Positions 3,028 to 20,799 of a stretch of DNA of 48,615 nt are shown piece after piece. The DNA comes from an uncultured Ruminococcus sp. (GTDB lineage Bacteria > Bacillota > Clostridia > Oscillospirales > Acutalibacteraceae). The stretch covers positions 1 to 48,615 of the forward strand of contig CADBYC010000020.1 of NCBI GenBank assembly GCA_902798755.1, read 5' to 3'. Under the pieces are notes generated by a model. That model saw nothing but the letters and a program-made list of their open reading frames with translations, did not search any database and was not told where the DNA came from. Position 1 is the stretch's first letter. Each line of letters opens with the position of its first letter. The position numbers and the translations under genes are program-made.

Positions 3028-3093
3028 GTATATGTTAGATCAACATAATCGCAATTGAGCCAGTTTTAGGGAAGAACAAAACTGCCAAAAACA

Positions 3094-3140
3094 AGAAATC
3101 CGAAACAGTCACCAACGATGACGATTTCGGATTTGCTCTG
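3094..3140. repeat. 47-bp palindromic repeat, copy 1
   Basis: Identical over 47 bp to 20673-20719 and in the same orientation. It contains the inverted arms AAATCCGAAA (3096-3105) and TTTCGGATTT (3125-3134), so the transcript would form a hairpin. The wider gap 3031-3347 holds this repeat, the start of the AT-rich element at 3277 and nothing else I can support as a gene. With copy 2 it bounds the accessory region that contains the serine recombinase. Confidence 0.85.
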
Positions 3141-3276
3141 GTGTGTCCTATGTGTATAAAAAAGATTTTTTTCGAAGGGTTTGCGCCAGAGACTTGAACG
3201 CACGAAAACAAATTTGAAAACACAGCAACAAAAGCAAGAAAGCCAAAGTGTTCCGAACTATCATTATTAAACAGTT

Positions 3277-3362
3277 TTTCAGTTTTAAGTTTTCAGTATT
3301 CATTTAGAAAATCCTGTCAGCAGGACTGAAAATTTAAGACTTAAAACTTAAAAATGAATAAT
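3277..3362. repeat. AT-rich inverted-repeat element overlapping the recombinase 3' end
   Basis: The left part (TTTTAAGTTTTCAGTATT..., 3283-3304) shares 22 identical bases with 36326-36347 in the purN-purO gap. The right part (3336-3362) is roughly its reverse complement (GACTTAAAACTTAAAAATGAATAAT). The arms enclose a small hairpin, AATCCTG/CAGGA. It looks like a short non-autonomous element. Its right arm supplies the stop codon of the recombinase gene. Confidence 0.55.
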
Positions 3363-4862
3363 ACAAAGCAAAAATCCTGCCACGTTGTGACAGGATTTTC
3401 GCTTTGGTGGAGCAGAGACGAATAAATCCGAAAAATCCTCCAAATCCTTCTGATAAAGGGTTTCGGCGTTCTCTTTATAGTTGAAGTAGAAGATGATCTT
3501 GTCATCGTACAGCACGATCGCGTTGACAAAGCTATCGATCATATTCTTCCTGTGCTTCGGATTCTTTGGATCAAAGTTTCTGAATCGCTGAAGCCAGAAA
3601 ACGATCTGTTCCCTAGTCAGAATCGGCTTTTTGATTGCCTCCGAAGCCAGCCTGACTTCGAGTTCCTTTTTCCGATCTTCGAGCTTGATCAATCGGTTTT
3701 TGGTGGTCTCGGTGATAATTCCCATCTCGATTGCTTTCATCAGGTTTTCGATTCCCGATTCAGCCTCGGCAAGCTGGCGCCTGAGAAGTTGAACTCCGTT
3801 ATCCTCTTCGCCTTGCGTCTTGATGATTTTGTCTGCAATCAGATTGATGGCGGAATCGTCTTGAATAATTTTCCGGATTTGATCGATCACCAGATCCTCA
3901 ATCAGATCCTTTTGAACAGCTTTCTTATCGCAGCCGCTTTTCCGTTTTGCGGATACACACTTGTAGTAGCGATAGGTTTTATCCCATCGGCTGGTACCGC
4001 TCTCGCCTACCATGAAGGATTTACAGTTACCGCAGTAGAGCTTTGTAGTCAGAATATACTCCTCGCCTGATTTCTTTCGGGCGGGCTTTTTTCTGTTTGC
4101 GTTTAGTTTGTTGTTGACGGATTCAAACATCTCTTTCGGGATGATGGCAGGGATACCGTTTTCGATAACGATCTCTCTGAATTTGTATTCTCCGATATAT
4201 CGCCGATTGGTCAGCATTTTGGAGACAACGGATATCTTGAATGGATTTCCTCTTCGGTTGCGGAGTCCTTTATCGTTGAGCGCAGTCACGATTTCTTTCA
4301 TTGTCATCCCGCTGTCATAAAGCTCGAAAACTTCACGGACGATGGCGGCGGTTGCAGGTTCGATCTGCAGATGCTGTTCGTCATCTACATAGTAGCCGTA
4401 TGGGATCGTACCTCCGTTGAATTTGCATTTGTAAGCATTTTCATTCATTCCGCGGAGCACCTTTTCAGCAAGCTCGGCTGAGTAATACTCCGCCATGCCT
4501 TCCAAAAGAGATTCAAGGATAATACCTTCGGGACCCTGCGAGATTGCCTCGGTAGCGGAAACCACACGCACGTTGTTGCGTCTCAGGATCGCCTTATAGT
4601 GTGCGGAATCGTAACGATTTCGGGCGAAGCGGTCAAGCTTCCATACGATGATGACCTCGAATTGTTCTTTGGCGCTGTCCCGAATCATTCGCTGAAACGC
4701 TGGACGATTATCTGTCTTTGCGGAGAGCGCTCTGTCGATGTACGTCTCGACGATTTGAATATCGTTCTTCTCAGCAAACGCCATACATTCTCTCAGCTGT
4801 CCCTCAATACTTTCTTCCCTTTGATTATCGGAAGAATACCTTGCATAAATTACACCATTCAT
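3348..4862 (-). CDS. Large serine recombinase (site-specific integrase)
   Basis: 504 residues. The N-terminal resolvase domain starts NGVIYARYSSDNQ with the catalytic serine at position 10 of the Y-x-R-x-S motif, and WKLDRFARN carries the conserved DRxxR. A recombinase domain follows (SGMTMKEIVTALNDKGL, SKMLTNRRYIGEY), then a zinc ribbon (CGNC ... CVSAKRKSGC) and a coiled-coil region before the C-terminus. Such enzymes integrate and excise mobile elements through a 5'-phosphoserine intermediate. The last ~20 residues are encoded across a terminator-like hairpin (AAAATCCTG...CAGGATTTT) and into an AT-rich repeat, so the natural C-terminus may have been extended or replaced. It is probably the integrase of the accessory region that follows. 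Confidence 0.93.
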   Translation of the reverse strand: MNGVIYARYSSDNQREESIEGQLRECMAFAEKNDIQIVETYIDRALSAKTDNRPAFQRMIRDSAKEQFEVIIVWKLDRFARNRYDSAHYKAILRRNNVRVVSATEAISQGPEGIILESLLEGMAEYYSAELAEKVLRGMNENAYKCKFNGGTIPYGYYVDDEQHLQIEPATAAIVREVFELYDSGMTMKEIVTALNDKGLRNRRGNPFKISVVSKMLTNRRYIGEYKFREIVIENGIPAIIPKEMFESVNNKLNANRKKPARKKSGEEYILTTKLYCGNCKSFMVGESGTSRWDKTYRYYKCVSAKRKSGCDKKAVQKDLIEDLVIDQIRKIIQDDSAINLIADKIIKTQGEEDNGVQLLRRQLAEAESGIENLMKAIEMGIITETTKNRLIKLEDRKKELEVRLASEAIKKPILTREQIVFWLQRFRNFDPKNPKHRKNMIDSFVNAIVLYDDKIIFYFNYKENAETLYQKDLEDFSDLFVSAPPKRKSCHNVAGFLLCIIHF

Positions 4863-4922: not shown

Positions 4923-5546
4923 CTAAAACAGATCCTCGATCTTGCATGCCAGAATATCGGCAAACAAGTTCAGCGTTTCGAGCTTCGCTCGCTTGAGATC
5001 CTTCTGCCCTTGCTCATAGGCTTGGATCGTTTTCAGGCTGATGCCGGAGATTCTCGACAGGCTTGATTGAGATAATCCCATTCTCTCTCTTTGCCGTTTC
5101 AACCCGATTTGTTGATTCGCCGTTCGCTTGTTCATCTTATCAAAGAACTTCTCGATCGGCGCTTCATGCAGCGTTTGGTACATTCCGATCAACTCCGAAA
5201 AGCCAACGAGCGAATGGAGCTTTTTGTAAGACTGCTCCGACTTGATCTGATACTGAGCCAATGCCCAGCCTGCCCAGTATTCGGGTGAGCGTTCAAAAGC
5301 AACATAGTCGGTGTTGTCAGATGGGATGTTCAGTTTATCAAATACCATGTTCACGATCTCTACAGCGGAGTGTCCCAATACGAACTTCGGATTGCCGTCC
5401 TCCAGCTGCTTAGCGATTCCCGAAATAACAAGGTAGTTCCAAAAATCGTCTCCGTCTGTTTTACAGAAGTTGACTGCATAATCAAAGCACTCGGCGACCA
5501 GGTCGATCGTCTTTTCATCAGAATAATTATCTGCTAAAGTCTTCAT
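4923..5546 (-). CDS. XRE-family HTH protein, probable antitoxin/repressor
   Basis: 207 residues. The C-terminal 64 residues are a Cro/cI-type helix-turn-helix (LKRQRERMGLSQSSLSRISG ... IQAYEQGQKDL). The first ~140 residues are a helical domain I do not recognise, with a distinctive FERSPEYWAGWALAQYQ segment. Its start overlaps the end of the upstream DUF3990 gene by 20 bp, so the two are translationally coupled. A DNA-binding partner beside an ADP-ribosyltransferase-like toxin suggests an antitoxin that represses its own promoter. The palindrome at 6238-6249 is a likely operator. The HTH is seen directly; the antitoxin role is inferred. Confidence 0.75.
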   Translation of the reverse strand: MKTLADNYSDEKTIDLVAECFDYAVNFCKTDGDDFWNYLVISGIAKQLEDGNPKFVLGHSAVEIVNMVFDKLNIPSDNTDYVAFERSPEYWAGWALAQYQIKSEQSYKKLHSLVGFSELIGMYQTLHEAPIEKFFDKMNKRTANQQIGLKRQRERMGLSQSSLSRISGISLKTIQAYEQGQKDLKRAKLETLNLFADILACKIEDLF

Positions 5547-6213
5547 TCTTCATGTTCCTTCCCATGATGTCCCGAATGAACAAACCATTCACGACATCGT
5601 TGTAGCGTTCAACGCTCAGATACTGTGTTCTCGCTTCGCTGTCTCTCTTCTCTCTCAACGGAAAATAGATACTGCTGTCAGCGTATTCGCATTTGTCTCT
5701 GTCAAACTGAACAGTGTCAAATGCCTTCTTCGATTTCAGCACTACCTGCTCGCCAAGTTTGCCCAGGCGCATCGCGCGGGATAACTGCTCAAGGGAGATC
5801 GTGTTGCTGATAAAGTCCTTCGCAAAGGAGAAGTAGGAGTCATCCGCACGATAACCGATGATGATGTCGTAGGGGGTAATATCGACGGAGAAATTCTCAA
5901 TGATATACTGCTTGGCGACCTGAGCGATCGGAACCGTCGTGCTGAAACGCCTGTTCTTTATCAGTATTGCCAGCCAGTTCAAGATATTATACTTTTCGTC
6001 GGACAGGTTCAGTATGCTCAATCCGTCGGTATCGATGGTATAAGCGTTGGCATAACCGTCCTGACCGCGCTCTCCGCAAGCCCACTCTTTCGCAAGCTCG
6101 ATAGACTCTGTGCAGTAGAAGCCTGTGCCGTAGTCGTTGTCAGGTTTGCCTTTTCCGAAAATAGGCTGACCTACGATATGATCACTGCCGTGATATAAAA
6201 CTAACTTGCTCAT
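5527..6213 (-). CDS. DUF3990-type ADP-ribosyltransferase-like protein, probable toxin
   Basis: 228 residues beginning LVLYHGSDHIV, followed by NDYGTGFYCTE at about residues 27-37. This YHGS ... GxGFYxT pattern is typical of DUF3990, a family with an ADP-ribosyltransferase-like fold seen in toxin-antitoxin loci. FSVDITPYDIIIGYRADDSY and a final LGEQVVLKSKKAFD segment also fit that family. It is the first gene of a two-gene unit with the XRE protein, read leftwards from a well-formed promoter, with ribosome site GAGGTG just before the ATG. The target, protein or nucleic acid, cannot be told from the sequence. Confidence 0.72.
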   Translation of the reverse strand: MSKLVLYHGSDHIVGQPIFGKGKPDNDYGTGFYCTESIELAKEWACGERGQDGYANAYTIDTDGLSILNLSDEKYNILNWLAILIKNRRFSTTVPIAQVAKQYIIENFSVDITPYDIIIGYRADDSYFSFAKDFISNTISLEQLSRAMRLGKLGEQVVLKSKKAFDTVQFDRDKCEYADSSIYFPLREKRDSEARTQYLSVERYNDVVNGLFIRDIMGRNMKNEDFSR

Positions 6214-6231
6214 GATATCACCTCTGTATAT

Positions 6232-6260
6232 ACTATACTACTGAAGTAGGATAATGTCAA
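6232..6260 (-). promoter_or_regulatory. Toxin-antitoxin promoter with palindromic operator in the spacer
   Basis: The minus strand has TTGACA (6255-6260), a 17-bp spacer and TATAGT (6232-6237). The spacer holds the inverted repeat CTACTGAAGTAG (6238-6249), ideally placed for repression by the XRE partner. Confidence 0.75.
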
Positions 6261-6390
6261 GTGTGTGAAACAATAAAGATAAATCATTTATAATACACAA
6301 ATTAGCGAAACATACCAAGAGATAATTCAAACTAAATCTGTATTGCTTGACAAGTTAGAAAACCATAAGTACGGTTTTTAAAATCAATTA

Positions 6391-6419
6391 TTGATTGTCC
6401 CCATGCTTTATGATATAGT
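6391..6419 (+). promoter_or_regulatory. Promoter of the helicase-methyltransferase-nuclease cassette
   Basis: TTGATT (6391-6396), 17-bp spacer, TATAGT (6414-6419), about 40 bp before the helicase start. It is divergent from the toxin-antitoxin promoter. A second TATAAT lies close by at about 6426. Confidence 0.55.
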
Positions 6420-6457
6420 AATTATGTATAATTATGTCATAATGGCTGAGGAGGGAA

Positions 6458-9289
6458 ATGATTGTGATTACCAAGTACCATGCAAAGTATTATGCCAATT
6501 TACTTTCTTGTCAAGCGGTAGGCGGTAATATTGACAGTCTGTCTCAGTCTCTTTTAAATGCATCTGTTGATATTAATCCTCATCAGATTGAAGCTGCACT
6601 GTTCGCATTCAAGTCACCCTTGTCCAAGGGTGTTATCTTTGCTGACGAAGTTGGTTTAGGTAAAACGATTGAAGCTGGATTGGTTTTGTGTCAGTTATGG
6701 GCTATTGGCAAGCGAAAAATTATTATCATTTGCCCAGCTTCTATCCGAAAGCAGTGGGGCTACGAACTTACTGAGAAGTTCGGTATTGATAACGAAGTAT
6801 TAGATACTAAAAACTACAATCAATATCTGCGTATAGGTGCTGAACCGTTCGATCAAAAAAAGGTTATCATCTGCTCTTACTATTTTGCGGCGCGCAAAAA
6901 GGAAGAGATTAAAAGACGCGGTTTTGATTTTGCAGTTATTGATGAAGCACACAAACTACGTAATGTCTATAAGAAGAACGCTAAAACTGCCCAAGCGCTT
7001 AAAGATGCTCTTTCGAATGTTAAAAAGCTGTTATTAACTGCTACACCTTTTCAGAACTCCTTGATGGAGCTTTTTGGCTTGACCAGCGTTATCGATGATA
7101 ATGTATTCGGCGATGCACGTTCTTTCCGTGCTGACTATGTTTATGATGAAAATATAACAGATCTGAAGCGTCGTATTGCACCATATTATACTCGTACGCT
7201 TCGTAAGGATGTCAAGGAGTATATCAATTATACGAATCGTCTTCCGATTACGCAGGAATTCAGTGCGACAGATTTAGAATCCAAACTATATGACGATATC
7301 TCAGAATTTCTAAGAAGAGAAGATGCGTATTCCGTTCCGAAGCGTCAGCGCATGTTGACTACGATGATCATACGTAAGATCCTTGCTTCATCTACCTATG
7401 CACTAATTGGCACTCTGCGTACCGTTAAGCAGAGATTGGAACAAATGCTGAAGGATGAAACGGCGAAGCAGCTCACGCTAGCAGATTATCTGGATCCTGA
7501 TGAAGCAGATTTGTACGAAGAGGACGATGAAGAAGAGAACCTGTTAGAAGACGATACCATTGATTTAGAAAAACTGCGTGACGAAATACATACCATAGAT
7601 GGCTTTATCGAAACTGCGCTGATGATAAAGTATGACACAAAATCAACTGCATTACTGCAGGCGCTGGAGCAAGCTTTTGCTATGCTGCCGCGCACAGGAG
7701 CAAAACGCAAGGCGCTCATTTTTACCGAATCCACCAGAACGCAGCAGTATCTGAAAGAGTATCTTGATGAACATGGATACAAGGGCAAGATTGTGCTGTT
7801 TAACGGTTCCAACAACGATCCTGAATCCAACGCCATTTATGAAACTTGGTATGCTAAGAATGCTTATAACGGCAAGGCGAGCGGTATCAAAGCGGCTGAT
7901 AAGCGTGTAGCAATCGTTGAGCACTTCCGTGACGAAGCTGAGATCATGATAGCAACCGAGGCGGCGGCAGAAGGTTTGAATCTCCAGTTCTGTTCTCTTG
8001 TTGTCAACTATGATTTGCCTTGGAATCCGCAGCGAATCGAGCAGCGTATTGGCAGATGCCATCGTTACGGACAGAAGTGCGATGTCGTTGTCGTCAATTT
8101 TGTCAACAAAAGGAATTTTGCCGATGTACGCGTGTATAATCTGCTCTTAGATAAATTCCATCTATTCAGTGATGTGTTCGGCGCCTCGGATGAAGTACTC
8201 GGACAAGCCGATGCGATCGATTTTGAAAAGCGTATCTGGGAGATCTATCAGGAGTGTCGTACCGAGGAAGAGATCAATGCTGCATTCGAAAGACTCCAAA
8301 GCGACCTTCAGGATCAGATCAGCGATAAGATGAAAGAAACGCGTGAACAGGTTCTGGAGAATTTTGATATTGATGTTCAGGAGCGTTTGAAACTATCGCG
8401 CGAGAAAACCGGAGCTTTCCTGTCTCGATATGAGCACATCTTCTGGGAGTTAACTAAGTTTGTGTTAAAAGATGATGCGGAATTTGATGACATCACACAC
8501 TCTTTCCGTTTGTTGACACCTCTTGCAGGTTGTAGAATCGGAAAATACGATTTGCTTTCTTGTTTGGCAGACGGTATACCTTATCGTTTGTCGCATCCAT
8601 TAGCGCAGTATGTTATCCAAACCGCATTAGGTTATGAGGTTGGTGAAGGCGCTGTAGAATTCAGCGAAGGCGATTCAAAAATAAAAGTCACATTACCGGA
8701 ACACCTGAAGAACAGCAGCGGTTATCTGGTATTGTCAGAACTGGATATCTCTGCTTTTGAAGATGAACAGTACTGTCTGTTTACTGCGTTTACAGATGAC
8801 GGCAGATTTCTGACTCAGGAGGAATGTGAAAAGCTGTTTCTGTGTGCCGGTTCCGAAACAGATTTCAGCGGCATTTCGGAAGAAGTAAAACGTAAGCTCG
8901 GCGTTAATGCAAAGCAGCACACAAAGAGCAAACTGAATGAAATAGACAGTCGTAATCTTGTCTATTTCAAAGAGGAAGAAGAGCGTATCTTCCGTTGGGA
9001 GAAAGATATCATTGATTCCATTGAGAAGGAACTCGATGTTGTTAAACGTTCGATCCGTGAGCATGAACGCCTTTCCCGCACAGCGGCTAATATGGAAGAA
9101 AAGCTCGCCTTCACCAAAAAGATAGACGAGCTGGAACGAAAGAAGCGCCGTATGCGCAATACGCTTGCCGACAGAGAGGACGAAGTAAGTCAGCAGAGAC
9201 GCCGTATGATAGAAGAACTTGATCGCCGAATGGTCAAGACAACCGCTACCGATGACATTTTTATAATCAGATGGTATACAAAGGAGTAA
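6458..9289 (+). CDS. SNF2-family helicase/translocase of a DNA-modification defence cassette
   Basis: 943 residues. Motif I is DEVGLGKT (63-70) and motif II is DEAH (162-165). TATPF follows at 194-198, with motifs V and VI in EAAAEGLNL and QRIEQRIGR (525-533, followed by CHRYGQ). This is the HepA/DrmD-like SNF2 branch of dsDNA translocases. An acidic insert lies near residue 350 (DPDEADLYEEDDEEENLLEDD, 7496-7558). The C-terminal third contains a long predicted coiled coil (about residues 850-930). Start: ATG after GAGGAGGG. It is the first gene of the cassette; the methyltransferase begins 4 bp after its stop. Similar helicases sit beside adenine methylases in class 1 DISARM, but no drmA, drmB or drmC is present here. 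Confidence 0.9.
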   Translation: MIVITKYHAKYYANLLSCQAVGGNIDSLSQSLLNASVDINPHQIEAALFAFKSPLSKGVIFADEVGLGKTIEAGLVLCQLWAIGKRKIIIICPASIRKQWGYELTEKFGIDNEVLDTKNYNQYLRIGAEPFDQKKVIICSYYFAARKKEEIKRRGFDFAVIDEAHKLRNVYKKNAKTAQALKDALSNVKKLLLTATPFQNSLMELFGLTSVIDDNVFGDARSFRADYVYDENITDLKRRIAPYYTRTLRKDVKEYINYTNRLPITQEFSATDLESKLYDDISEFLRREDAYSVPKRQRMLTTMIIRKILASSTYALIGTLRTVKQRLEQMLKDETAKQLTLADYLDPDEADLYEEDDEEENLLEDDTIDLEKLRDEIHTIDGFIETALMIKYDTKSTALLQALEQAFAMLPRTGAKRKALIFTESTRTQQYLKEYLDEHGYKGKIVLFNGSNNDPESNAIYETWYAKNAYNGKASGIKAADKRVAIVEHFRDEAEIMIATEAAAEGLNLQFCSLVVNYDLPWNPQRIEQRIGRCHRYGQKCDVVVVNFVNKRNFADVRVYNLLLDKFHLFSDVFGASDEVLGQADAIDFEKRIWEIYQECRTEEEINAAFERLQSDLQDQISDKMKETREQVLENFDIDVQERLKLSREKTGAFLSRYEHIFWELTKFVLKDDAEFDDITHSFRLLTPLAGCRIGKYDLLSCLADGIPYRLSHPLAQYVIQTALGYEVGEGAVEFSEGDSKIKVTLPEHLKNSSGYLVLSELDISAFEDEQYCLFTAFTDDGRFLTQEECEKLFLCAGSETDFSGISEEVKRKLGVNAKQHTKSKLNEIDSRNLVYFKEEEERIFRWEKDIIDSIEKELDVVKRSIREHERLSRTAANMEEKLAFTKKIDELERKKRRMRNTLADREDEVSQQRRRMIEELDRRMVKTTATDDIFIIRWYTKE

Positions 9290-9293
9290 ACCG

Positions 9294-12200
9294 ATGAGTG
9301 AAAAGTTAAAAAGATTCACTGATTTGATGCAGGAGATATTTGAGCTCGATAAGTCTGATCTCGATTTCGGTATCTACCGCATTATGATTATCCGAAAGGC
9401 AGAGATCGAAAAGTTCCTGACAGTGCGTTTGCCGGAGTTGGTGCAAGATACTCTTAAGCCTTTTGCACAGGGCAATAAAGAGGAAACCCGTGCTGAAATG
9501 GCTCAGATTGAGAAAAGCGCATCAGACATGGGTATGACGGTGGACGATCTTCCTGAGACGGCGCCTTTGAAACAAAAGTATACTCAGCTTCGCAAACAAC
9601 TTGCGGAAGGAACAGATCTTTCAGCATTGGAGACGGATGTTTATTCTGCGCTTTACTCTTTCTTCAATCGCTATTATGAAGAAGGCGATTTTATTTCCAA
9701 GCGCCGATACAAAGAGGGCGTTTATGCTATCCCTTATGAAGGTGAAGAAGTCAAGCTTTATTGGGCAAATCAGGATCAGTATTATATCAAGACCAGTGAG
9801 AATTTCAAAGATTACTCCTTTACTGTTGCTGATCACACCGTTCATTTCCGCTTGGTAGACGCGACAACCGAGCAGAATAATAACAAAGAGAGCAAGGATA
9901 AAAAGCGCGTCTTTATGCTTTTTACCGAGGATGAAGAGAATCATCCGGGCATCAAAACCTTTGAGTATAATGAAGATGCCAAAGAATTCATCATTCGTTT
10001 TATCTATGATATACCCGAGGATAAGAAAAAGAAGTATGATGAATTGAATTACACTGCTATCAGTGAATGGTTGGTCAAGACGCGGATTCCGATTTGGCAG
10101 GAGCTGTTGGTACGTAATATCCCCAGCGGCAAGAAAGGGAAAATGATCGACCTGCTCGAAAAGCATCTGAAAGGATATGTAGCAAAGAATACCTTTGATT
10201 ATTTTATCCATAAGGATCTGCGCGGGTTCCTCAGCCGTGAGCTTGATTTTTATATCAAGAGCGAGGTCATGCATCTCGATGACCTTGATACCGACCATGA
10301 GGAACGCGTCGAGACTTATCTTGCAAAGGTTAAGGCGATCAAGCGCGTCGGTAAGATCATCATTGATTTCCTTGCCCAGATCGAAGATTTCCAGAAGAAA
10401 CTGTGGCTCAAGAAGAAGTTTGTCGTAGAGACAAATTGGTGCATGACGCTCGATAAGGTAGACGAGAGCTTTTGGCAGGAAATCATCGAGAATAAAGAAC
10501 AGATCAATGAATGGATCGCGTTGTATGCGATCGACGAAGCGGAAGGCTGGACAAATCCGCCCTCCCTTGATTTCTTGCGCCAAAATCAGAATCTTAGCAT
10601 TGATACCAAGCACTTTGACACTGTATTCAAAGAGCGCCTTGTCGCAAGTATCGAGAATCTGGACGAGCAGACCAATGGATTGATGATTAATGGAGATAAT
10701 TATCATGCATTATCTTCTTTGCAAACAAAATATCGAAGCAGAATAGATTGCTTCTATTTAGATCCGCCTTATAATGCAAAATCAAGTGAGATTCTGTATA
10801 AGAATAATTATAAAAACTCAACATGGTTATCATTTATCGATAACAGAATAGAACTTTCAAAGCAACTTCAAAATCTAAATGGAGCGATTGTTTTTGCAAT
10901 TGATGAAAACGAACAAGTGAATATTGGAAGGTATTTCAAAGAAAGTATTGATGAAACTAACTATTCTGTTGATTGTATCACGGTAATACATAATCCGGGA
11001 GGAATTCAGGGAAGCAACTTTTCTTATTCTCATGAGTTTGCATATTTTATTTACCCAAATAAAAGTGGATACATTACAAAAGAGAAGAGAAATCGGGAAG
11101 AGAATCCTGAACTGACTCCGTTCAGAGATTGGGGAAAGGAAAACTCAAAAAGAACAGAATCACCAAACTGTTTTTATCCAATTATCATAGATTTGCAAGG
11201 GGCAGTTATCGGTTTTGGAGACATTCCTCCGACAGATTTCCATCCATTTTCCTCTAATGAACGCGAGGGAAACACGATTAAAGTTTGGCCGATTGATATA
11301 AACGGGATTGAAAGGCGCTGGCGTTTTGCACGAGACACAGTAGAAGCAATTAGGGATGAACTGAAAGCGGATTTCGGAAAAGGTGTCTGGAGTATCAAGC
11401 GCGCCAAAATGTTTTATACCAGAAAAACAGTCTGGGATAACCAGAAATACAGTGCTAATGTTAGTGGGACACAGCTTTTGGCACAAATAATCCAATCATC
11501 GTTCTCATTCCCTAAGTCTTTGTATTTGGTAAAAGATTGTATCATGGCTTGTGAGCAGAATAATTCTCAACTGGTCATGGATTACTATGCCGGATCCGGT
11601 ACTACCGGTCATGCTGTGATTTCCCTTAACCGAGACGATAATGGCAACAGAAAATACATCCTTGTTGAAATGGGCGAATATTTTGATTCCGTTACCAAGC
11701 CTCGTATGCAAAAGGTCGTCTATTCCGCAGATTGGAAAGACGGTAAACCGCAGAATCGTAATACCGGTATATCTCAGATCATCAAGTACATGACCTTAGA
11801 GAGCTATGAGGATGCGTTGTCCAACATTCAGCTTGACGATGATACACATGGGATGCTCGGATTATTCAGCGATGACTATATGATTCACTATATGCTCGAC
11901 CTCGAGAGTCAGGGAAGTCTGCTGAATCTCGACGCCTTCCGTGACCCCTTCTCTTACCGTATGAAAATCACCGAGAAGAATGAATGCAAAGAGCGCCCTG
12001 TGGATGTGATCGAAACCTTTAACTATCTGATCGGTTTGACCGTTATACATCAAGGTGCAACAGTTTCGTTTACGACAAAAGCAAATAACGACGGCGAGTA
12101 TGAAGGCGCTGTTGATTTGGTAAAGGACGCATTCGGTCAATACTCCTTCCGTCAGATCGAGGGTACCCTGCCGGACGGAAGGCGCGCTCTCGTCATCTGG

Positions 12201-12407
12201 CGAACCGTCAGCGATAATATCATTGAGAGCAACGCGGCTCTTGACGCATACTTCCGCAAGTACCGCGTCAATCCAGCCGATCGCGAGTATGACATCATCT
12301 ATGTAAACGGCGACAACAACCTCGAGAACCTCCGCACCGACGACGAAGCATGGAAGGTTCAAATGACCGAGCTTGAATTCAAATCCCGCATGTTTGAGGA
12401 AGAGTAA
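9294..12407 (+). CDS. Long beta-class N6-adenine DNA methyltransferase (type III Mod-like)
   Basis: 1037 residues. The catalytic motif DPPY is at 490-493 and the AdoMet-binding motif DYYAGSGTT starts at 763. This order (motif IV, target-recognition region, motif I) defines the beta class, which includes type III Mod subunits. About 480 residues precede the catalytic domain, and about 250 residues follow motif I. It would modify adenine in a host site and so label self DNA. Ribosome site AAAGGAG precedes the ATG. The segment about 10680-11580 (catalytic motif to recognition region) is far more AT-rich than its flanks: 14 G+C in 60 bases at 10801-10860 against 32 in 60 at 10261-10320. That suggests exchange of the specificity segment. 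Confidence 0.9.
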   Translation: MSEKLKRFTDLMQEIFELDKSDLDFGIYRIMIIRKAEIEKFLTVRLPELVQDTLKPFAQGNKEETRAEMAQIEKSASDMGMTVDDLPETAPLKQKYTQLRKQLAEGTDLSALETDVYSALYSFFNRYYEEGDFISKRRYKEGVYAIPYEGEEVKLYWANQDQYYIKTSENFKDYSFTVADHTVHFRLVDATTEQNNNKESKDKKRVFMLFTEDEENHPGIKTFEYNEDAKEFIIRFIYDIPEDKKKKYDELNYTAISEWLVKTRIPIWQELLVRNIPSGKKGKMIDLLEKHLKGYVAKNTFDYFIHKDLRGFLSRELDFYIKSEVMHLDDLDTDHEERVETYLAKVKAIKRVGKIIIDFLAQIEDFQKKLWLKKKFVVETNWCMTLDKVDESFWQEIIENKEQINEWIALYAIDEAEGWTNPPSLDFLRQNQNLSIDTKHFDTVFKERLVASIENLDEQTNGLMINGDNYHALSSLQTKYRSRIDCFYLDPPYNAKSSEILYKNNYKNSTWLSFIDNRIELSKQLQNLNGAIVFAIDENEQVNIGRYFKESIDETNYSVDCITVIHNPGGIQGSNFSYSHEFAYFIYPNKSGYITKEKRNREENPELTPFRDWGKENSKRTESPNCFYPIIIDLQGAVIGFGDIPPTDFHPFSSNEREGNTIKVWPIDINGIERRWRFARDTVEAIRDELKADFGKGVWSIKRAKMFYTRKTVWDNQKYSANVSGTQLLAQIIQSSFSFPKSLYLVKDCIMACEQNNSQLVMDYYAGSGTTGHAVISLNRDDNGNRKYILVEMGEYFDSVTKPRMQKVVYSADWKDGKPQNRNTGISQIIKYMTLESYEDALSNIQLDDDTHGMLGLFSDDYMIHYMLDLESQGSLLNLDAFRDPFSYRMKITEKNECKERPVDVIETFNYLIGLTVIHQGATVSFTTKANNDGEYEGAVDLVKDAFGQYSFRQIEGTLPDGRRALVIWRTVSDNIIESNAALDAYFRKYRVNPADREYDIIYVNGDNNLENLRTDDEAWKVQMTELEFKSRMFEEE

Positions 12408-12409
12408 TC

Positions 12410-13345
12410 ATGGCAACGACAATACCAAGAACACTATATCATTACTGCAGTATTCCCACATTCTTTAATATAGTAAAGAACAAGTCTATTTGGTTATCAG
12501 ATATTAGCAAATCAAATGATTCACTTGAACTCAGATGGATTAAGGAACAGTGTCGATATTACATACTAAAAGTATGGGTGGATTATGTTAGGTCAGTCAA
12601 AGAATCAGTTAATGATCTGTCGTTAGTAAGCTTTGATGATTTCGAAAATGTTCAGAAGTTTAGCGAGTTAATTGCCAAATACGACTTAACAAAAAGCTGG
12701 GTCTTTTGTCTTACAGAGAAGAAAGACAATTTAGGTCAGTGGCGTGGATACGCAGATGACGGTACCGGTGTTTGTATAGGATTTAAAACTGATTTTTATT
12801 CTATGATTGACGCAGTCGCTCATTATATTGACAAAGATGCAGATTTACACTTTAGAAAAGTTCGATACACAAAAAAAGAAATCGAAGACTTCTTTTATAA
12901 TGCTGCTGAATTGTCTAAGATAGATGCCAGTATGTCTTGTCAAGAAGTGATCCGGTTATTGAATTCTGCTATCAGCTTTACAATGAGTAATGCTGAGTTC
13001 TTTAAAAACGATGCCTTCAAGGAAGAAAAGGAATGGCGTTTAGTTTATACGATGGAAACAAGCGATTTATTAAAGGGTAAGGTTCCCGGTATGGAAAAGT
13101 TCAGCGAAAAGATTACTGATATGTCTATCGGAAATTTCGGTTTTTCTACAAGAAGAGGAACAATAATATCGCATATCGAAATTAGTTTACCAAAACTTGA
13201 TTCTGTTTTTTCGAGCATTACAATTGGACCTAAATCTTCGCTTTCCATAAATGACGTGAAGTTGTTTTTATTACATTCTGGTGTAATAAAGAACACGGAA
13301 AACCTTTCAATAAAAATCGAAAAATCAAAAGTATCATACAGATAG
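12410..13345 (+). CDS. DUF2971-family protein
   Basis: 311 residues. It starts with LYHYCSIPTFFNIVKNKSIW and IWLSDISKSNDSLE, then has WVFCLTEKKDNLGQWRGYAD and GVCIGFKTDF, and later VRYTKKE and EEKEWRLVY. This is the characteristic DUF2971 pattern. The family has no established biochemical activity that I can state with confidence, but it recurs near phage-defence genes. It starts 3 bp after the methyltransferase stop and ends 12 bp before the nuclease gene, so it is in the same transcript. Its base composition is visibly more AT-rich than that of the nuclease gene, which suggests later insertion between the modification and restriction genes. It may be an effector or abortive-infection component. 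Confidence 0.8.
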   Translation: MATTIPRTLYHYCSIPTFFNIVKNKSIWLSDISKSNDSLELRWIKEQCRYYILKVWVDYVRSVKESVNDLSLVSFDDFENVQKFSELIAKYDLTKSWVFCLTEKKDNLGQWRGYADDGTGVCIGFKTDFYSMIDAVAHYIDKDADLHFRKVRYTKKEIEDFFYNAAELSKIDASMSCQEVIRLLNSAISFTMSNAEFFKNDAFKEEKEWRLVYTMETSDLLKGKVPGMEKFSEKITDMSIGNFGFSTRRGTIISHIEISLPKLDSVFSSITIGPKSSLSINDVKLFLLHSGVIKNTENLSIKIEKSKVSYR

Positions 13346-13356
13346 AGAGATAGATT

Positions 13357-16300
13357 ATGGCTAAGAAAAAGAATGTCCCCGATCTGACATTTGATGAACA
13401 ACTGATACTGTTCCGCTATTTCCTGCATGAATTAGGAATAGAGGGATTATCAACGCTGAGCAGAAAACTGAACAGCACAGAATACGAAGGCGTCGACGAA
13501 AGCGGAAGAACCTATTTTTCGCTGTATATCGAGCAGTATGCCAAAACGCGTGGAATAGAGATGAACTTTGACAAGCTGCGCGTGTATGACGAGAATATCT
13601 GTCGCCATACCAGAAAAATCAGTGAGAAGCGCGGAACATTACGCTGGAAATATTTTCAGTATATTTCTCTGCTGTTTACAGAGATGTATCTCGACCGCTA
13701 TTTCGGCGACAAAGAAGCATTTTGCAGCGACCTGAACAATTATCTGGATTCATTAATTACGGAGTCATTCGGTAGGATCGGATTTGAACATTATACCGTT
13801 GACAAGCTGAATAAACTCGCCTATATGTGCGCTACCGGCAGCGGTAAAACGCTGATCATGCACGTCAACATACTGCAATTCAGTTATTACTTCAAACGCG
13901 CCAAAAGAGCAAACAGCCGTCTTTCGATCAACAAGATCATTGTCCTTGCTCCGAATGAGGGCATGAGCAAGCAACATCTGGAAGAATTGACGCTGTCATC
14001 TATCCATGCTGCGATCTTCGATAAAAACTGGAGCTTCAAATCTCGCCAGGACGAAGTTATTGTCATTGACATGAACAAGCTCAAAGAAGAAGGAAAGGTC
14101 AAAACCGTTTCTGTCGACAGCTTTGAGCAAAATAACCTTGTGCTTGTTGATGAAGGGCATAGAGGCTTATCCGGTGACATCTGGTATGATTATCGAACCA
14201 GACTATCAGCCGATGGATTCTCTTTTGAGTACTCCGCTACATTTAAGCAGGCTCTGAAAGCAAGCTCGACGAAAAAGGAAGATAAAGCGCTGATGGAAGA
14301 GTACGGAAAGTCTATCATCATGGACTATTCGTATAAGTACTTCTATGAGGATGGATACGGCAAGGATTATCGAATCTATAATCTCAGAGACAGCATCGAT
14401 GAAGAACAGCGGCATCTGTATCTTACGGGAGGATTACTGTCGTTCTATCAACAGCTGAAGCTGTATTCCGAAGCCGGTCACAAGCTGAGAGAATTCAATA
14501 TCGAAAAACCGCTGATGGTATTTGTCGGTAATCGCGTCACCACATCTACATCAAAAGGTGAGCTGACTGATGTTGAAGAAGTACTGGATTTCCTTGATAA
14601 ATTTGTACGCAACAAGGCTGTTTCTATCAGAAGGATCAACGATGTCCTTATCAAGGATACCGGATTAACCGACGCCTCCGGAAACGATTTGTTCTATGGC
14701 AGTTTCAATGCGCTGGAGCATATTTTCGGCGGTACTCCCGACGCGACAGTTATCTTTGAAGATGTTCTGCGGCTGGTGTTTAACTCCGATACCGTAGCGG
14801 ATGAACCGCGCTTGCAGCTAAGAAACATCAAACAGGTACCGGGGGAAATCGGTATGCGAATCGGCAGCGAAGGCGAGTACTTTGGTGTAATCAATATCGG
14901 CGATACTGCAGAATTGATGAAACGCCTCAACACAAGAGATATCGATACGGATAATGAAGAGTTTATCTCAGAATCTATGTTCCGTTCTATCAACAGCAAA
15001 GACTCGCGCATGAATATCCTGATCGGTTCGCGTAAGTTTACCGAGGGTTGGAACAGCTGGCGTGTGTCCACGATGGGATTGATCAACTTTGCTAAAGGCG
15101 AAGGATCACAGGCAATCCAGCTTTTCGGACGCGGAGTAAGACTGAAAGGATATCAGGGATGTCTGAAACGCTCCCGTAGATTGGATGACAGGAGAGTCAC
15201 TATTCCACAGGATATCGAGATTCTTGAAACACTGACTATCTTCGGCGTAAAGGCGCAATATATGGAAGACTTCAAAAGATATCTTGAACTTGAAGGCGCT
15301 CCGGTCAATGATAATCTTCTGGAGTATAAGATGCCGGTTATCAGTCGCTATCACGAAGTTAAGGATAAAAATCTGCATGTGATCCGTGTGCGCGACGGAG
15401 CCAACTTTAAGCGCCAATCACGCAGAATGGTGCTTGATGTACCGGATGAAGGATTTAAGCGTTATCTGTCAAGAAGCAAAACACGGATCGATTGTCGCAG
15501 CAAGATTCAAACAATTGATTCTACCTTCAGCTTCAAGTTGGAATCGAGCCCCGAAGAGCATACTTTGCCCAAAGACAAACTCCGGTATTTGGATTATCAG
15601 AGAATCTTTGAGGAGCTTGAACAGTATAAGAATGAAAAGTTCTATTATATTATCAGCATCGAAAAAGGAAAGCTGGAGAGTATTCTGAATGAAGATTATT
15701 GGTACTCTCTGCTGATACCGAAAAGTCATCTTGAGATCGATACGGTTGAAAAACTAATCGCTGCTACCGATTATGCTGTGTTGGCGCTGAAATCCTATAT
15801 GGACAAATTCTTCAAGTATGAGAAAGAGCGTTGGGAAGCTCCGAGATTGGAATATAAGATACTTGAAGAAGATGACAACAATTTTGTTGACGAATACAAA
15901 ATCACCTATGCTCCACAGGGCGAATGGGATCATACAGGAGAGGACCTGGATAGATTTGTATCGGATATCAGTGCAATCCTGACAGAGCAGAAAGGCTTAG
16001 ATGTTTATGAAAAGCCCGCTTTCCGTGACAGACTGGTACTGTTTGATTTTCGAGCACACTTGTATGCTCCTTTGCTTTGCCTGCAAAAGAGTAATTTGAA
16101 AATCCAGGTGACCCCGGTCAGCCTGAACGAAGATGAAAAGAAGTTCGTGGATCTGCTGCATGATTATGTCAGCAGTAATCCGGAGATACTGAAAGATAAA
16201 ACACTGTACCTGTTGCGGAACAAAAGCAAGACAGGTATGGGTTTCTTTGAGGCGGGCAATTTCTATCCCGACTATATTCTTTGGATAAACAGCGACGATA

Positions 16301-16596
16301 CAGAGTACATCTCCTTTATTGATCCAAAGGGGTTGCTGAATCTTAATCCGGATGATCCGAAGATCCAGTTCTCGAAAATAATAAAAGAGAAGGAAGAACA
16401 GCTGTCGTCGCAAGTTACAGATAAGCAAATCGTTTTGAATTCTTTTATCATGTCAGGAACGAATGAGATGGCTTTGAACGAAAGATGGAGAAGACCGGAT
16501 ATTCCGGATCAGCAAGCTTTCAGAGAAGAGAGAAACATCTATATGTTAGATGATGACGAATGCATATCTAAGATTATGGAAAAGATTGTTGTTTAG
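13357..16596 (+). CDS. Type III-like restriction subunit: helicase plus PD-(D/E)xK nuclease
   Basis: 1079 residues. Walker A is ATGSGKT (159-165), the Walker B box is DEGH (265-268), and the SATF motif III and motif VI QLFGRGVR (up to residue 595) follow. The C-terminal nuclease signature is YPDYILW with D972, then FIDPKG with D989 and K991, a complete PD-D-x-K site. An N-terminal extension of about 150 residues precedes the helicase core. The ribosome site is weak, so coupling to the DUF2971 gene is likely. It should cleave DNA that the upstream methyltransferase has not marked, driven by ATP-dependent movement. Terminator at 16637. Confidence 0.9.
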   Translation: MAKKKNVPDLTFDEQLILFRYFLHELGIEGLSTLSRKLNSTEYEGVDESGRTYFSLYIEQYAKTRGIEMNFDKLRVYDENICRHTRKISEKRGTLRWKYFQYISLLFTEMYLDRYFGDKEAFCSDLNNYLDSLITESFGRIGFEHYTVDKLNKLAYMCATGSGKTLIMHVNILQFSYYFKRAKRANSRLSINKIIVLAPNEGMSKQHLEELTLSSIHAAIFDKNWSFKSRQDEVIVIDMNKLKEEGKVKTVSVDSFEQNNLVLVDEGHRGLSGDIWYDYRTRLSADGFSFEYSATFKQALKASSTKKEDKALMEEYGKSIIMDYSYKYFYEDGYGKDYRIYNLRDSIDEEQRHLYLTGGLLSFYQQLKLYSEAGHKLREFNIEKPLMVFVGNRVTTSTSKGELTDVEEVLDFLDKFVRNKAVSIRRINDVLIKDTGLTDASGNDLFYGSFNALEHIFGGTPDATVIFEDVLRLVFNSDTVADEPRLQLRNIKQVPGEIGMRIGSEGEYFGVINIGDTAELMKRLNTRDIDTDNEEFISESMFRSINSKDSRMNILIGSRKFTEGWNSWRVSTMGLINFAKGEGSQAIQLFGRGVRLKGYQGCLKRSRRLDDRRVTIPQDIEILETLTIFGVKAQYMEDFKRYLELEGAPVNDNLLEYKMPVISRYHEVKDKNLHVIRVRDGANFKRQSRRMVLDVPDEGFKRYLSRSKTRIDCRSKIQTIDSTFSFKLESSPEEHTLPKDKLRYLDYQRIFEELEQYKNEKFYYIISIEKGKLESILNEDYWYSLLIPKSHLEIDTVEKLIAATDYAVLALKSYMDKFFKYEKERWEAPRLEYKILEEDDNNFVDEYKITYAPQGEWDHTGEDLDRFVSDISAILTEQKGLDVYEKPAFRDRLVLFDFRAHLYAPLLCLQKSNLKIQVTPVSLNEDEKKFVDLLHDYVSSNPEILKDKTLYLLRNKSKTGMGFFEAGNFYPDYILWINSDDTEYISFIDPKGLLNLNPDDPKIQFSKIIKEKEEQLSSQVTDKQIVLNSFIMSGTNEMALNERWRRPDIPDQQAFREERNIYMLDDDECISKIMEKIVV

Positions 16597-16636
16597 ACAG
16601 GTAAATAAAAAGAAGAATAGTACAGAATACAAGTGA

Positions 16637-16672
16637 GCAGAGGGATTGGTGTTAACAATCCCTCTGCTTCTT
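16637..16672 (+). terminator. Intrinsic terminator of the defence cassette
   Basis: A perfect twelve-base-pair stem, GCAGAGGGATTG/CAATCCCTCTGC, with a 7-nt loop, followed by TTCTTAT. Confidence 0.85.
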
Positions 16673-16887: not shown

Positions 16888-17757
16888 ATGGCAGGTGAAT
16901 TTTCTTTATCACAGTACAAATCTAAATTGAGACAATTACAACAGAAACAAAGACAGGTTATTAACAATTATAATCGTGCGGTAGATAACTATAATCGAAA
17001 CATGAAGAAGGCCATTAATAATTATAATTCAGCTGTTAGAAAGCATAATGCTACCGTACGACATAACAGGCAAATAATAGCTAATGAATTGCGAAAGCTA
17101 AATTCGACTTCTGCTGCAATGCAGAGTGGGTATTCAACATCTTCGAGGATTATGTATCAACACTATGAAAATGTTGGAAGAGTGTACTATGAAGGAATTC
17201 CTGTGTCTCCAGAACAGGAGAGAATTCTTGACTTGATAGAGCAGGAACAAGCGAATAGTTTGACTACAGAAAATATAATAGAAGGAGATAATAGTTCAGA
17301 AGCGTTACCAGAAGATATTGAAATCGGGGATAAACTTGCTGTTGTATCTGAAGATTTAAACGACAGATGGAAGGGCGCTGTTTTTGCTTTAAATCCAAAC
17401 AATCCAGATGCGACAAGGCATTTCTGTACAAGCACCCGAGAAATTTTTACCGAGTTTCTCGAGATAAAAGCTCCTGATGATAAAGTTTTTGAGTATAATC
17501 CGCAGTGCCAAAAAACAGAGAGGGGAAATGCAACGCGTCGTGAAAAAATAGGATTCATGATGCGAAATACTAACATGGATGATAGTGTGGTTTCGTTTGT
17601 TGAAGCAGATATAAAAAACATTTTGGAATTGAATCATTTACTTAGCGGAGGAACTCACGGACCTGCAGGAAAATATACATTTGAAAAACTATTACAGGTT
17701 AAGAAACGTGTTGAACAGGGTATTCTATTTCTCTGTGAGATATCACAATCTGCATAG
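16888..17757 (+). CDS. Coiled-coil protein with a possible pPIWI-associating nuclease-like domain
   Basis: 289 residues. Residues 11-75 are a charged helix rich in repeated asparagine-tyrosine motifs: INNYN at 25-29 and 43-47, DNYN at 33-36. A linker with PEQERILDLIEQEQ follows. The C-terminal domain (about 150-289) contains RWKGAVFALNPNNPDATRHF, STREIFTEFL, RREKIGFMM and a final KKRVEQGILFL. The RWKGA, NPDATRHF and STREIFT elements recall the predicted nuclease domain described beside pPIWI proteins. That is from memory and untested. Start after GGAGGAG. It has its own promoter, is AT-rich and follows the restriction cassette, so a defence role is plausible. Confidence 0.6.
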   Translation: MAGEFSLSQYKSKLRQLQQKQRQVINNYNRAVDNYNRNMKKAINNYNSAVRKHNATVRHNRQIIANELRKLNSTSAAMQSGYSTSSRIMYQHYENVGRVYYEGIPVSPEQERILDLIEQEQANSLTTENIIEGDNSSEALPEDIEIGDKLAVVSEDLNDRWKGAVFALNPNNPDATRHFCTSTREIFTEFLEIKAPDDKVFEYNPQCQKTERGNATRREKIGFMMRNTNMDDSVVSFVEADIKNILELNHLLSGGTHGPAGKYTFEKLLQVKKRVEQGILFLCEISQSA

Positions 17758-17772
17758 ACTGAAAAAGTTTGC

Positions 17773-17800
17773 TTGACTTATTCTTTTTCTGTGGTATTGT
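17773..17800 (+). promoter_or_regulatory. Promoter of the 17827 gene
   Basis: TTGACT (17773-17778), 16-bp spacer, TATTGT (17795-17800), immediately upstream of the ribosome site AAAGGGG. Confidence 0.5.
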
Positions 17801-17826
17801 GTTGTGCTTGAAAGGGGTACGATACG

Positions 17827-18093
17827 ATGACCACATTAGAAGATTTCTACTTCGGAAACGTCAATCCAAGCGAGTATAATCAGAGCAAAGGCGTCAAGAA
17901 AAAGCTCTCAGAGATGTTGAAATTACTCAATGAATTCCGTCTTATACTCACGACCGAACAGCAAAAAGAAAAGCTGGAGCAGATCGAGAACTGCCAACTA
18001 TCTTTGATCGCTCTGTCTGAAAAGGACGCTTACATCGAAGGCTTCAAACTCGGTGTGAAGATTGCAACAGAGATTTATACAGAATCACAGTAG
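17827..18093 (+). CDS. Small DUF6809-like protein
   Basis: 88 residues. The pattern TLEDFYFGNVNPSEY at the N-terminus and YIEGFKLGVKIATEI at the C-terminus, joined by a helical, lysine- and glutamate-rich middle, matches small Firmicutes proteins of the DUF6809 type. No function is known to me. Ribosome site AAAGGGG, own promoter and terminator. Proteins of this kind are common in accessory and mobile regions of Clostridia. Confidence 0.7.
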   Translation: MTTLEDFYFGNVNPSEYNQSKGVKKKLSEMLKLLNEFRLILTTEQQKEKLEQIENCQLSLIALSEKDAYIEGFKLGVKIATEIYTESQ

Positions 18094-20625: not shown

Positions 20626-20672
20626 TCGATTATACGGAAACAGCTCACATTCAGACAAAATCACGGAAAATG

Positions 20673-20719
20673 AGAAATCCGAAACAGTCACCAACGATGA
20701 CGATTTCGGATTTGCTCTG
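20673..20719. repeat. 47-bp palindromic repeat, copy 2
   Basis: Identical to 3094-3140 and in the same orientation. It lies 3 bp from the 3' end of the tRNA gene at 20723. On the minus strand its hairpin (AAATCCGAAA/TTTCGGATTT) followed by CTCATTTTCC could end tRNA transcription. It marks the right edge of the accessory region. Confidence 0.85.
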
Positions 20720-20722
20720 CTG

Positions 20723-20799
20723 TGGTGGGCCATCAGGGACTCGAACCCCGGACCGACCGGTTATGAGCCGGTTGCTCTAACCAACTGAGCTAATGGCCC
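20723..20799 (-). tRNA. tRNA with CAT anticodon (elongator Met, possibly Ile2)
   Basis: The minus strand gives a 77-nt cloverleaf with encoded CCA. The acceptor stem is GGGCCAT/ATGGCCC with discriminator A, the D-arm contains AGCTCAGTTGGTTAGAGC, the anticodon stem is ACCGG/CCGGT with loop CTCATAA (anticodon CAT), and the T-loop is TTCGAGT. The anticodon stem lacks the three G-C pairs of initiator tRNA. Elongator Met and lysidine-modified Ile2 cannot be told apart safely by eye. Confidence 0.93.

Follow-up and report, generated by a model that had tools for sequence, protein, structure and literature searches.

Does a tightly packed set of genes make up one defence system that is defined by all of its parts, or is it a smaller core that carries an exchangeable gene? 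The question is raised by positions 6458-16596 of the window (the whole stretch of DNA analysed here, the 48,615 nucleotides of contig CADBYC010000020.1 from an uncultured Ruminococcus sp.), which are filled by four intact open reading frames (ORFs) on the + strand with intergenic gaps of 4, 2 and 11 bp, encoding an SNF2-family motor, a DNA methyltransferase (Mod), a DUF2971 protein and a restriction subunit (Res). An original prediction, made from the letters of the sequence, had described this tight packing correctly and had proposed the four genes as a type of their own, with DUF2971 as a defining part. By the refuting condition that the prediction had set for itself, the four-part type fails, and a three-part core survives: SNF2, Mod and Res recur as a set in 80 of 88 judgeable loci, but DUF2971 is absent from 79 of these 80, so that among them the four-gene combination is found in the window only. 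In our view the cassette is probably a type III-like restriction-modification operon that was acquired horizontally, has an SNF2 motor of its own and carries one exchangeable cargo gene, DUF2971, at the junction of Mod and Res.

The first core gene (6458-9289, + strand) encodes a predicted double-stranded DNA (dsDNA) motor of 943 amino acids (aa) that is DrmD/RapA-like, carries the Pfam domains SNF2-rel_dom and Helicase_C and has intact motifs DEVGLGKT (residue 63), DEAH (162) and TATP (194); its best match among solved chains is RapA. Mod (9294-12407, + strand) is a long beta-class DNA methyltransferase of 1037 aa (Pfam N6_N4_Mtase; PADLOC MTase_III PDLC03646, 687 bits), which matches Mbo45V, the Mod 6k0w and EcoP15I Mod among solved type III Mods and in which DPPY (490) stands ahead of GSGT (767), the order of the beta class; the DPPY motif is kept in 21 of 21 proteins in an alignment of long-class loci. 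Between these two motifs (IV and I) lies a variable part at approximately residues 540-740 (10911-11513, + strand), which is presumed to be the target-recognition domain. Specifically, identity per 50 aa to the Mod of a survey relative (L021) falls to 4-40% here, with flanks at 52-88%, and in three genomes of the class this part is the gap between two matched pieces; a region that is far more variable than the remainder of the protein fits a changing site specificity. Res (13357-16596, + strand) is a superfamily 2 (SF2) helicase of 1079 aa with a C-terminal PD-DxK nuclease motif (Pfam ResIII; PADLOC REase_III PDLC03654, 593 bits). Its motifs ATGSGKT (159), DEGH (265), PD (971-972) and DPK (989-991) are intact, and an alignment of 21 long Res proteins keeps P971 and D972 in every member, D989 in 20 and K991 in 17. 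The set of an SNF2 motor, a beta-class methylase and a type III-like restriction subunit with an intact PD-DxK site, as originally described, is thus borne out by motifs, by Pfam and PADLOC and by the survey of loci. As for existing tools, PADLOC models already name Mod (MTase_III) and Res (REase_III), and sequence records label the first core gene 'SNF2-related protein'.

The survey was anchored on SNF2 relatives in plasmids, genomes of the class, species-representative genomes and viral contigs, and comprised six plasmid loci (chosen from 691 matching records), class-genome regions, the best 80 of 559 confirmed species-representative candidates and 69 viral loci, with genes taken from greedy ORF calls and profiles. 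After exclusion of short overlapping loci (L001, L008-L019), four duplicates and six loci with an SNF2 protein below 850 aa, there were 108 non-duplicate loci with SNF2 of at least 850 aa, of which 88 were judgeable (complete, or with 8 kb or more of downstream sequence), while 20 were set aside for their short flanks. SNF2, Mod and Res all lie on one strand in 80 of the 88 loci, and Mod or Res or both are nearby in 85; the others include L121 (both genes after a longer interruption), L139 (both, on the opposite strand), L004 and L096 (a Mod) and L077 (a Res); in the record of L004, a DEAD/DEAH helicase is annotated at the point where its stretch is cut. The gene order is SNF2, Mod, Res in 74 of the 80 complete loci, and the gaps between successive genes on the core strand have a median of 3 bp, with 185 of 232 not exceeding 30 bp. 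The 42 of these 80 loci that have a known phylum come from 12 named phyla, and phage records gave no SNF2 match at E 1e-100.

Three classes of Mod-Res partner are found in the 80 loci: 33 are long, as in the window, 36 are short with a Res of approximately 905 aa and 11 are short with a Res of approximately 980 aa, the profile of this last class giving a full-length match (348 bits) to the solved EcoP15I Res. On the SNF2 tree, which was built with FastTree, is unrooted and bears a long-branch warning between the group of L084 and the DrmD group, the Res class changes nine times among the 80 loci; with the DISARM-type loci added as a fourth group there are ten changes, against a shuffled mean of 41.5. 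Since the Res class changes so few times, SNF2 and Mod-Res appear to have been mostly co-inherited, with repeated exchange. L034 and L100, for instance, have SNF2 proteins that are 84% identical, yet their Mod-Res pairs are of different classes.

Exchange is also seen at the junction that DUF2971 occupies in the window. The nearest relative in the survey, L020, is 82% identical to the window in SNF2, 68% in Mod and 73% in Res, and has a gene for an AAA_15 ATPase of 567 aa at the position of DUF2971, while in L021 (65%, 53% and 61%, respectively) the junction is empty, the stop of Mod overlapping the start of Res. Thus the Mod-Res junction exists in three states among close relatives, with DUF2971, with an ATPase gene and with nothing. 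Ribosomal protein L3 of the window's genome is only 52% identical to that of the genome of L020, which, set against 82% for SNF2, indicates that the operon has moved between lineages.

The DUF2971 protein itself (12410-13345, + strand; 311 aa) is recognized by PF11185 (49 bits) and weakly by PADLOC PDC-S31 (41 bits), and its gene is embedded between Mod and Res, 2 bp from the former and 11 bp from the latter. Among 391 genomes of the class, DUF2971 is present in 23 and SNF2 search matches in 11, and both occur in two, namely the window's own genome and G366; in the latter, a DISARM-type SNF2 protein is encoded approximately 188 kb from DUF2971. L311, an EcoP15I-like type III locus that lacks SNF2, has a weak DUF2971-like ORF (34 bits, E 9.5e-9; 5771-6880) that overlaps the Mod start, and this fits cargo and not a four-part system. 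On plasmids, DUF2971 was found in 103 records, and in the six whose neighbourhoods were examined the relatives are mostly stand-alone genes, one adjoining qatC and qatD and one an abortive-infection gene. A viral scan with an alignment as query recovered ten relatives, and none was confirmed with a single sequence as query. The alignments contain 19 invariant residues with the class-genome relatives and 21 with the viral relatives, and because polar and charged residues are among them, they suggest that DUF2971 is an enzyme. The idea of a DarT-like ADP-ribosyltransferase, prompted by a YHY start, was unsupported, with an hhalign probability of 0.3% in a comparison with one DarT protein only (DarT was present in one of 148 genomes).

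Cargo of other kinds is common in the complete loci. Counting as cargo every ORF between core genes, after removal of four ORFs that match core profiles (L127 and L052 contribute pieces of Mod or Res, and L081 a weak SNF2 match), there are 66 ORFs of at least 100 aa in 42 of the 80 loci and 56 of at least 200 aa in 38, a count that includes one IS256 transposase (L006) and perhaps other chance ORFs. Cargo presence changes at least 20 times on the SNF2 tree, and one loosely linked cluster of AAA_21/OLD-like cargo changes eight times in eight loci and spans two Res classes. A Pfam scan covered 30 of the 70 cargo ORFs initially called and a PADLOC scan ten cargo proteins; the Pfam cut-off was passed by 20 of the 30 and not by the other ten. 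The families found are AAA_21/AAA_15, SMC-like, AIPR, RhuM, Schlafen AlbA_2, Abi_2, DUF4276, BRO-N, YhcG/DUF1016, DUF2130, SIR2, HerA, GmrSD, Fic, ParA-like ATPase and sigma factor. By PADLOC, L005 holds SIR2 together with HerA, and L075 holds HEC-01A (also a weaker AriA match) with HEC-01B, HEC standing for Hma-embedded candidate. Outside the survey, one E. coli chromosome reads SNF2, Abi (AbiD), AIPR, Mod, Res, and at L393:11379-14756 (E. coli chromosome) the pair of ietAS, a published defence system, lies between SNF2 and Mod (350 and 1206 bits by PADLOC; below the NCBIfam cut-offs, with 267 of 510 and 150 of 900).

Such a repertoire, with families so diverse that they include whole stand-alone systems (SIR2 with HerA; ietAS), with a transposase in one slot and with cargo also in loci that lack SNF2, would suit DUF2971 and the other cargo being independent passengers in a safe, expressed slot, without any functional tie to the core. 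We regard this explanation as possible, if somewhat doubtful: the repertoire is rich in defence families, and there is precedent for a tie, as PrrC, which is embedded in a type I operon, is described as firing on inhibition of that enzyme, and PARIS as a guardian of the PrrC kind (PMC12707154).

A different objection concerns the SNF2 gene, which might be merely the defence-island neighbour of an ordinary type III pair. To count from the opposite side, viral loci were collected through Mod or Res, in partial overlap with the viral loci anchored on SNF2; loci without Mod (eight and three) and loci with less than 4 kb upstream and no SNF2 (nine, two and five) were excluded. SNF2 adjoins 14 of the 15 loci that could be judged in the 905-aa class (two of the 14 with an SNF2 protein of DISARM type, scores 710 and 726), nine of 13 loci of the long class, to which the window belongs, and five of 51 judgeable EcoP15I-like loci from the best 80 of 124 matches. 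It is therefore a near-standard partner in the 905-aa class and a frequent one in the long class, and it seldom accompanies the classical, EcoP15I-like pairs. The 46 of 51 EcoP15I-like and four of 13 long-class loci in which Mod and Res stand without SNF2 speak for a mere neighbour, but the near-constant link seen from the SNF2 side, the short gaps, the fixed order and a Res class that tracks the SNF2 tree make this explanation unlikely.

Could the cassette instead be a reduced DISARM, in which SNF2 is DrmD and DrmA, DrmB and DrmC have been lost? DrmD models are indeed nearest to the SNF2 protein (676 bits over residues 30-657 with PADLOC DrmD PDLC02619, among the best 25 of 49 models), and DISARM loci of the DrmD_b class have a related SNF2 motor and carry Mod too, partly Res, beside DrmA, DrmB or DrmC. 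In eight DISARM-type loci Mod was called in seven (L145 ends after SNF2) and Res in five; DrmA is found in L147 and L094, DrmB in L147 and L146, DrmC in L147 and DrmMII in L094, and a 947-aa neighbour in L147 is only a weak REase_III match. The combination of DrmD_b with a type III-like Mod, and often with Res and DrmA, was noted in L094, L146 and L147, and also in L027, L028, L095 and L150. However, the window's SNF2 protein falls under both NCBIfam DrmD cut-offs (675, cut-off 950; 277, cut-off 610), and its 676 bits compare with 1410 and 1351 bits for the two DrmD_b proteins that were scored. On the FastTree tree, unrooted and with the long-branch warning given above, a branch with full support separates the 80 core SNF2 proteins from the eight DrmD_b proteins, two of which are identical, and the window's genome (89.97% complete, 74 contigs) has no match to DrmA (PDLC02575) or DrmB (PDLC02583). 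DISARM membership was rejected on these features, and a DISARM stripped of its other genes is, in our judgement, quite unlikely; the window's system is a relative of the DISARM-type motor-methylase-nuclease set that does without the DISARM proteins. The absence of drmA and drmB had been stated from the start and is confirmed, and drmC, pglZ and brxC are unlisted in the PADLOC tables of nine proteins around the cassette, no genome-wide search for these three having been made.

Hma and the DUF499-centred systems related to BREX likewise join a helicase, a methylase and an ATPase, and other defence genes are embedded in their operons (PMC12255303); HmaB is a 5-methylcytosine (m5C) methylase and the Hma ATPase is DUF499 (PMC8565338, PMC12839542). 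The window differs from these systems, as far as their features can be taken from descriptions, in its beta-class N6/N4 methylase and its Res. None of the four cassette proteins matches DUF499, HmaB or HmaC in Pfam or PADLOC (for SNF2, among the best 25 of 49 models), and SNF2 reaches 195 bits with PADLOC HmaA, against 676 for DrmD. Hma membership was thus rejected as well, and the view that the cassette is neither DISARM nor Hma stands on the features tested.

Type III systems such as EcoP15I and Mbo45V also have an adjacent beta-class Mod and a Res with SF2 helicase and PD-DxK nuclease; the window's Mod matches their solved Mods, and in one of the three partner classes the entire Res resembles that of EcoP15I. 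What sets the window apart is the SNF2 gene in the operon, the longer Mod and Res, a Res that is distant from that of EcoP15I and the exchangeable cargo. A second gene between restriction genes is likewise known from prrC or DarTG2 in type I operons, but there the carriers are of type I and the cargo is worked out, whereas the window's carrier is SNF2 with a type III-like Mod-Res pair and the defence role of DUF2971 is putative. A dedicated four-gene system with DUF2971 as an obligatory subunit, as first proposed, is very improbable: the gene has core-like spacing and a weak relative touches Mod in one EcoP15I-like locus, but nearly all complete relatives lack it, the two nearest in the survey hold another gene or none at the junction and the plasmid relatives examined are mostly stand-alone.

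The reading that we prefer, a type III-like operon with its own SNF2 motor and a replaceable gene between Mod and Res, draws on what is observed in gene content, intact motifs, the association of the three core genes and the exchange of both cargo and Mod-Res modules. A number of findings weigh against it, and they concern (i) the type III character of the window's pair, (ii) the constancy of the SNF2 partner and (iii) the cargo. First, the profile of the window's Res matches none of the solved chains, not even EcoP15I Res, and a profile comparison with the EcoP15I-like class spans 124 columns with a probability of 58.8%; the label 'type III' is therefore drawn from Mod, the PADLOC names and the motifs, and the motif lysine is replaced by H in four of the 21 long Res proteins. 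Second, three of the 88 judgeable loci (L070, L107 and L151) show neither Mod nor Res, and L185 and L186, from genomes of the class, are long Mod-Res pairs with no SNF2 nearby. Third, DUF2971 has no solved relative up to E 1, and 15 of the 46 judgeable EcoP15I-like loci that lack SNF2 (from the best 80 of 124 matches) have a gene inserted between Mod and Res. This last count speaks against cargo as a special feature of SNF2 loci: because SNF2-less EcoP15I-like loci hold cargo too, its uptake is a more general trait of type III operons.

For enzyme activities, the formation of a complex and the roles of SNF2 and DUF2971, the following scheme is proposed. EcoP15I acts as Mod2Res1 or Mod2Res2, requires ATP, diffuses along DNA and cleaves at two inverted sites (PMC4490356). 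By its likeness to such enzymes, Mod would read a short site through its variable domain and methylate adenine, thereby shielding the host, and on unmethylated phage DNA a complex of Mod and Res would spend ATP and travel along the DNA until Res cleaves with its PD-DxK domain. SNF2 proteins travel on dsDNA without strand separation (PMC5512222), and because of this movement and of RapA as best solved match, the SNF2 protein, as a RapA/DrmD-like translocase, is proposed as an added motor that may strip proteins off the DNA or gather complexes. DUF2971, made from the same transcript, might serve as a second-line effector that acts when restriction is blocked or failing. This is the weakest step of the scheme, put forward tentatively by analogy with PrrC and PARIS, from which the guard role of the cargo is inferred. 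Extended to the family as a whole, the scheme would make SNF2-Mod-Res an unnamed class of ATP-dependent restriction system with two different DNA motors, in which SNF2 is a true subunit and the junctions are sockets for guard effectors (DUF2971, AIPR, SIR2-HerA, ietAS, Abi_2 and others) that fire when the core is disabled; this extension is speculative, and the chances are rather against it.

The embedding of defence genes in operons is already published, in a preprint by Payne and others (10.1101/2024.01.29.577857), as cited in PMC12255303 and PMC12629846, and DarTG2 has been described in a type I restriction operon (PMC12255303). Parts of the core have been met before: a figure legend names SWI2/SNF2 and Mod/Res among the genes of one superoperon (PMC11090510), AIPR is described as common in restriction operons, with type III and SWI2/SNF2 restriction neighbourhoods (PMC2292703), and methylase-SNF2 pairs of mobile elements have been likened to type III enzymes (PMC5512222). 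In the open-access literature, which does not take in most subscription papers or the bioRxiv preprints outside PubMed Central, no paper was found that names an SNF2-Mod-Res system, and none on DUF2971 together with phage.

A motor-methylase-nuclease operon that is this widespread is hidden in annotation, where its first gene is an SNF2-related protein and the other two are type III in PADLOC, and treating the three genes as one system would explain many stray DrmD-like matches. The cargo slot, in turn, is a place to seek new defence genes, and it makes testable the question of whether a gene inside a restriction operon is a guard of the enzyme or just a passenger, for which the natural swaps in the window, L020 and L021 offer a ready comparison.

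Several smaller observations concern the surroundings of the core genes in other loci. In L069, L071, L073 and L144, SNF2-Mod-Res runs straight into genes of approximately 380 and 920 aa, which in L071 are SbcD-like and SbcC-like and are followed by a PLD-like ORF just below the cut-off; SbcD/SbcC-like genes downstream would fit the processing of cut DNA. A small helix-turn-helix (HTH) gene overlaps or touches the SNF2 start in L391 (11814-12014), L003, L005 and L006, and that of L391 passes the NCBIfam MAD1 model (methylation-associated defence system; 81.3, cut-off 80). A DNA comparison with an SNF2 gene of this family from a Salmonella plasmid gave matches in 248 of 5426 E. coli genomes, at least 80% of the gene being covered in 29; the short matches are possibly to other SNF2 genes.

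In the window, the gene spacing makes a single transcript for the cassette likely, in line with the earlier account, which had also placed a promoter in front and a strong terminator behind. The signals themselves fare less well: between 5400 and 18400 there are 29 promoter-like sites, against a shuffled mean of 31.2 (standard deviation 5.5), which is no excess, and 13 terminator-like sites against 10.0 (standard deviation 3.0), which is barely above. The sole strong inverted repeat downstream of the cassette, at 16636-16668 with 13 pairs, is a possible terminator 3' of Res but is terminator-like on the - strand only. Directly behind the cassette, 16888-18093 (+ strand) encodes a predicted pPIWI-associating nuclease (pP_pnuc_1, 128 bits) and a DUF6809 protein.

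On the other side, 4923-6213 (- strand) holds a gene for an HTH protein that overlaps one for a DUF3990 protein, the latter matching the PADLOC candidate PDC-M42A (155 bits), and 3348-4862 (- strand) encodes a large serine recombinase (Resolvase, Recombinase and zinc ribbon domains in Pfam). Direct repeats of 70 nt that are 89% identical, at 3076-3145 and 20655-20724, enclose 17.6 kb including the cassette; they are possible attachment sites of an island, with the recombinase as its possible integrase. The right copy adjoins a tRNA-Met gene, and a third copy lies on another contig (90% over 49 nt).

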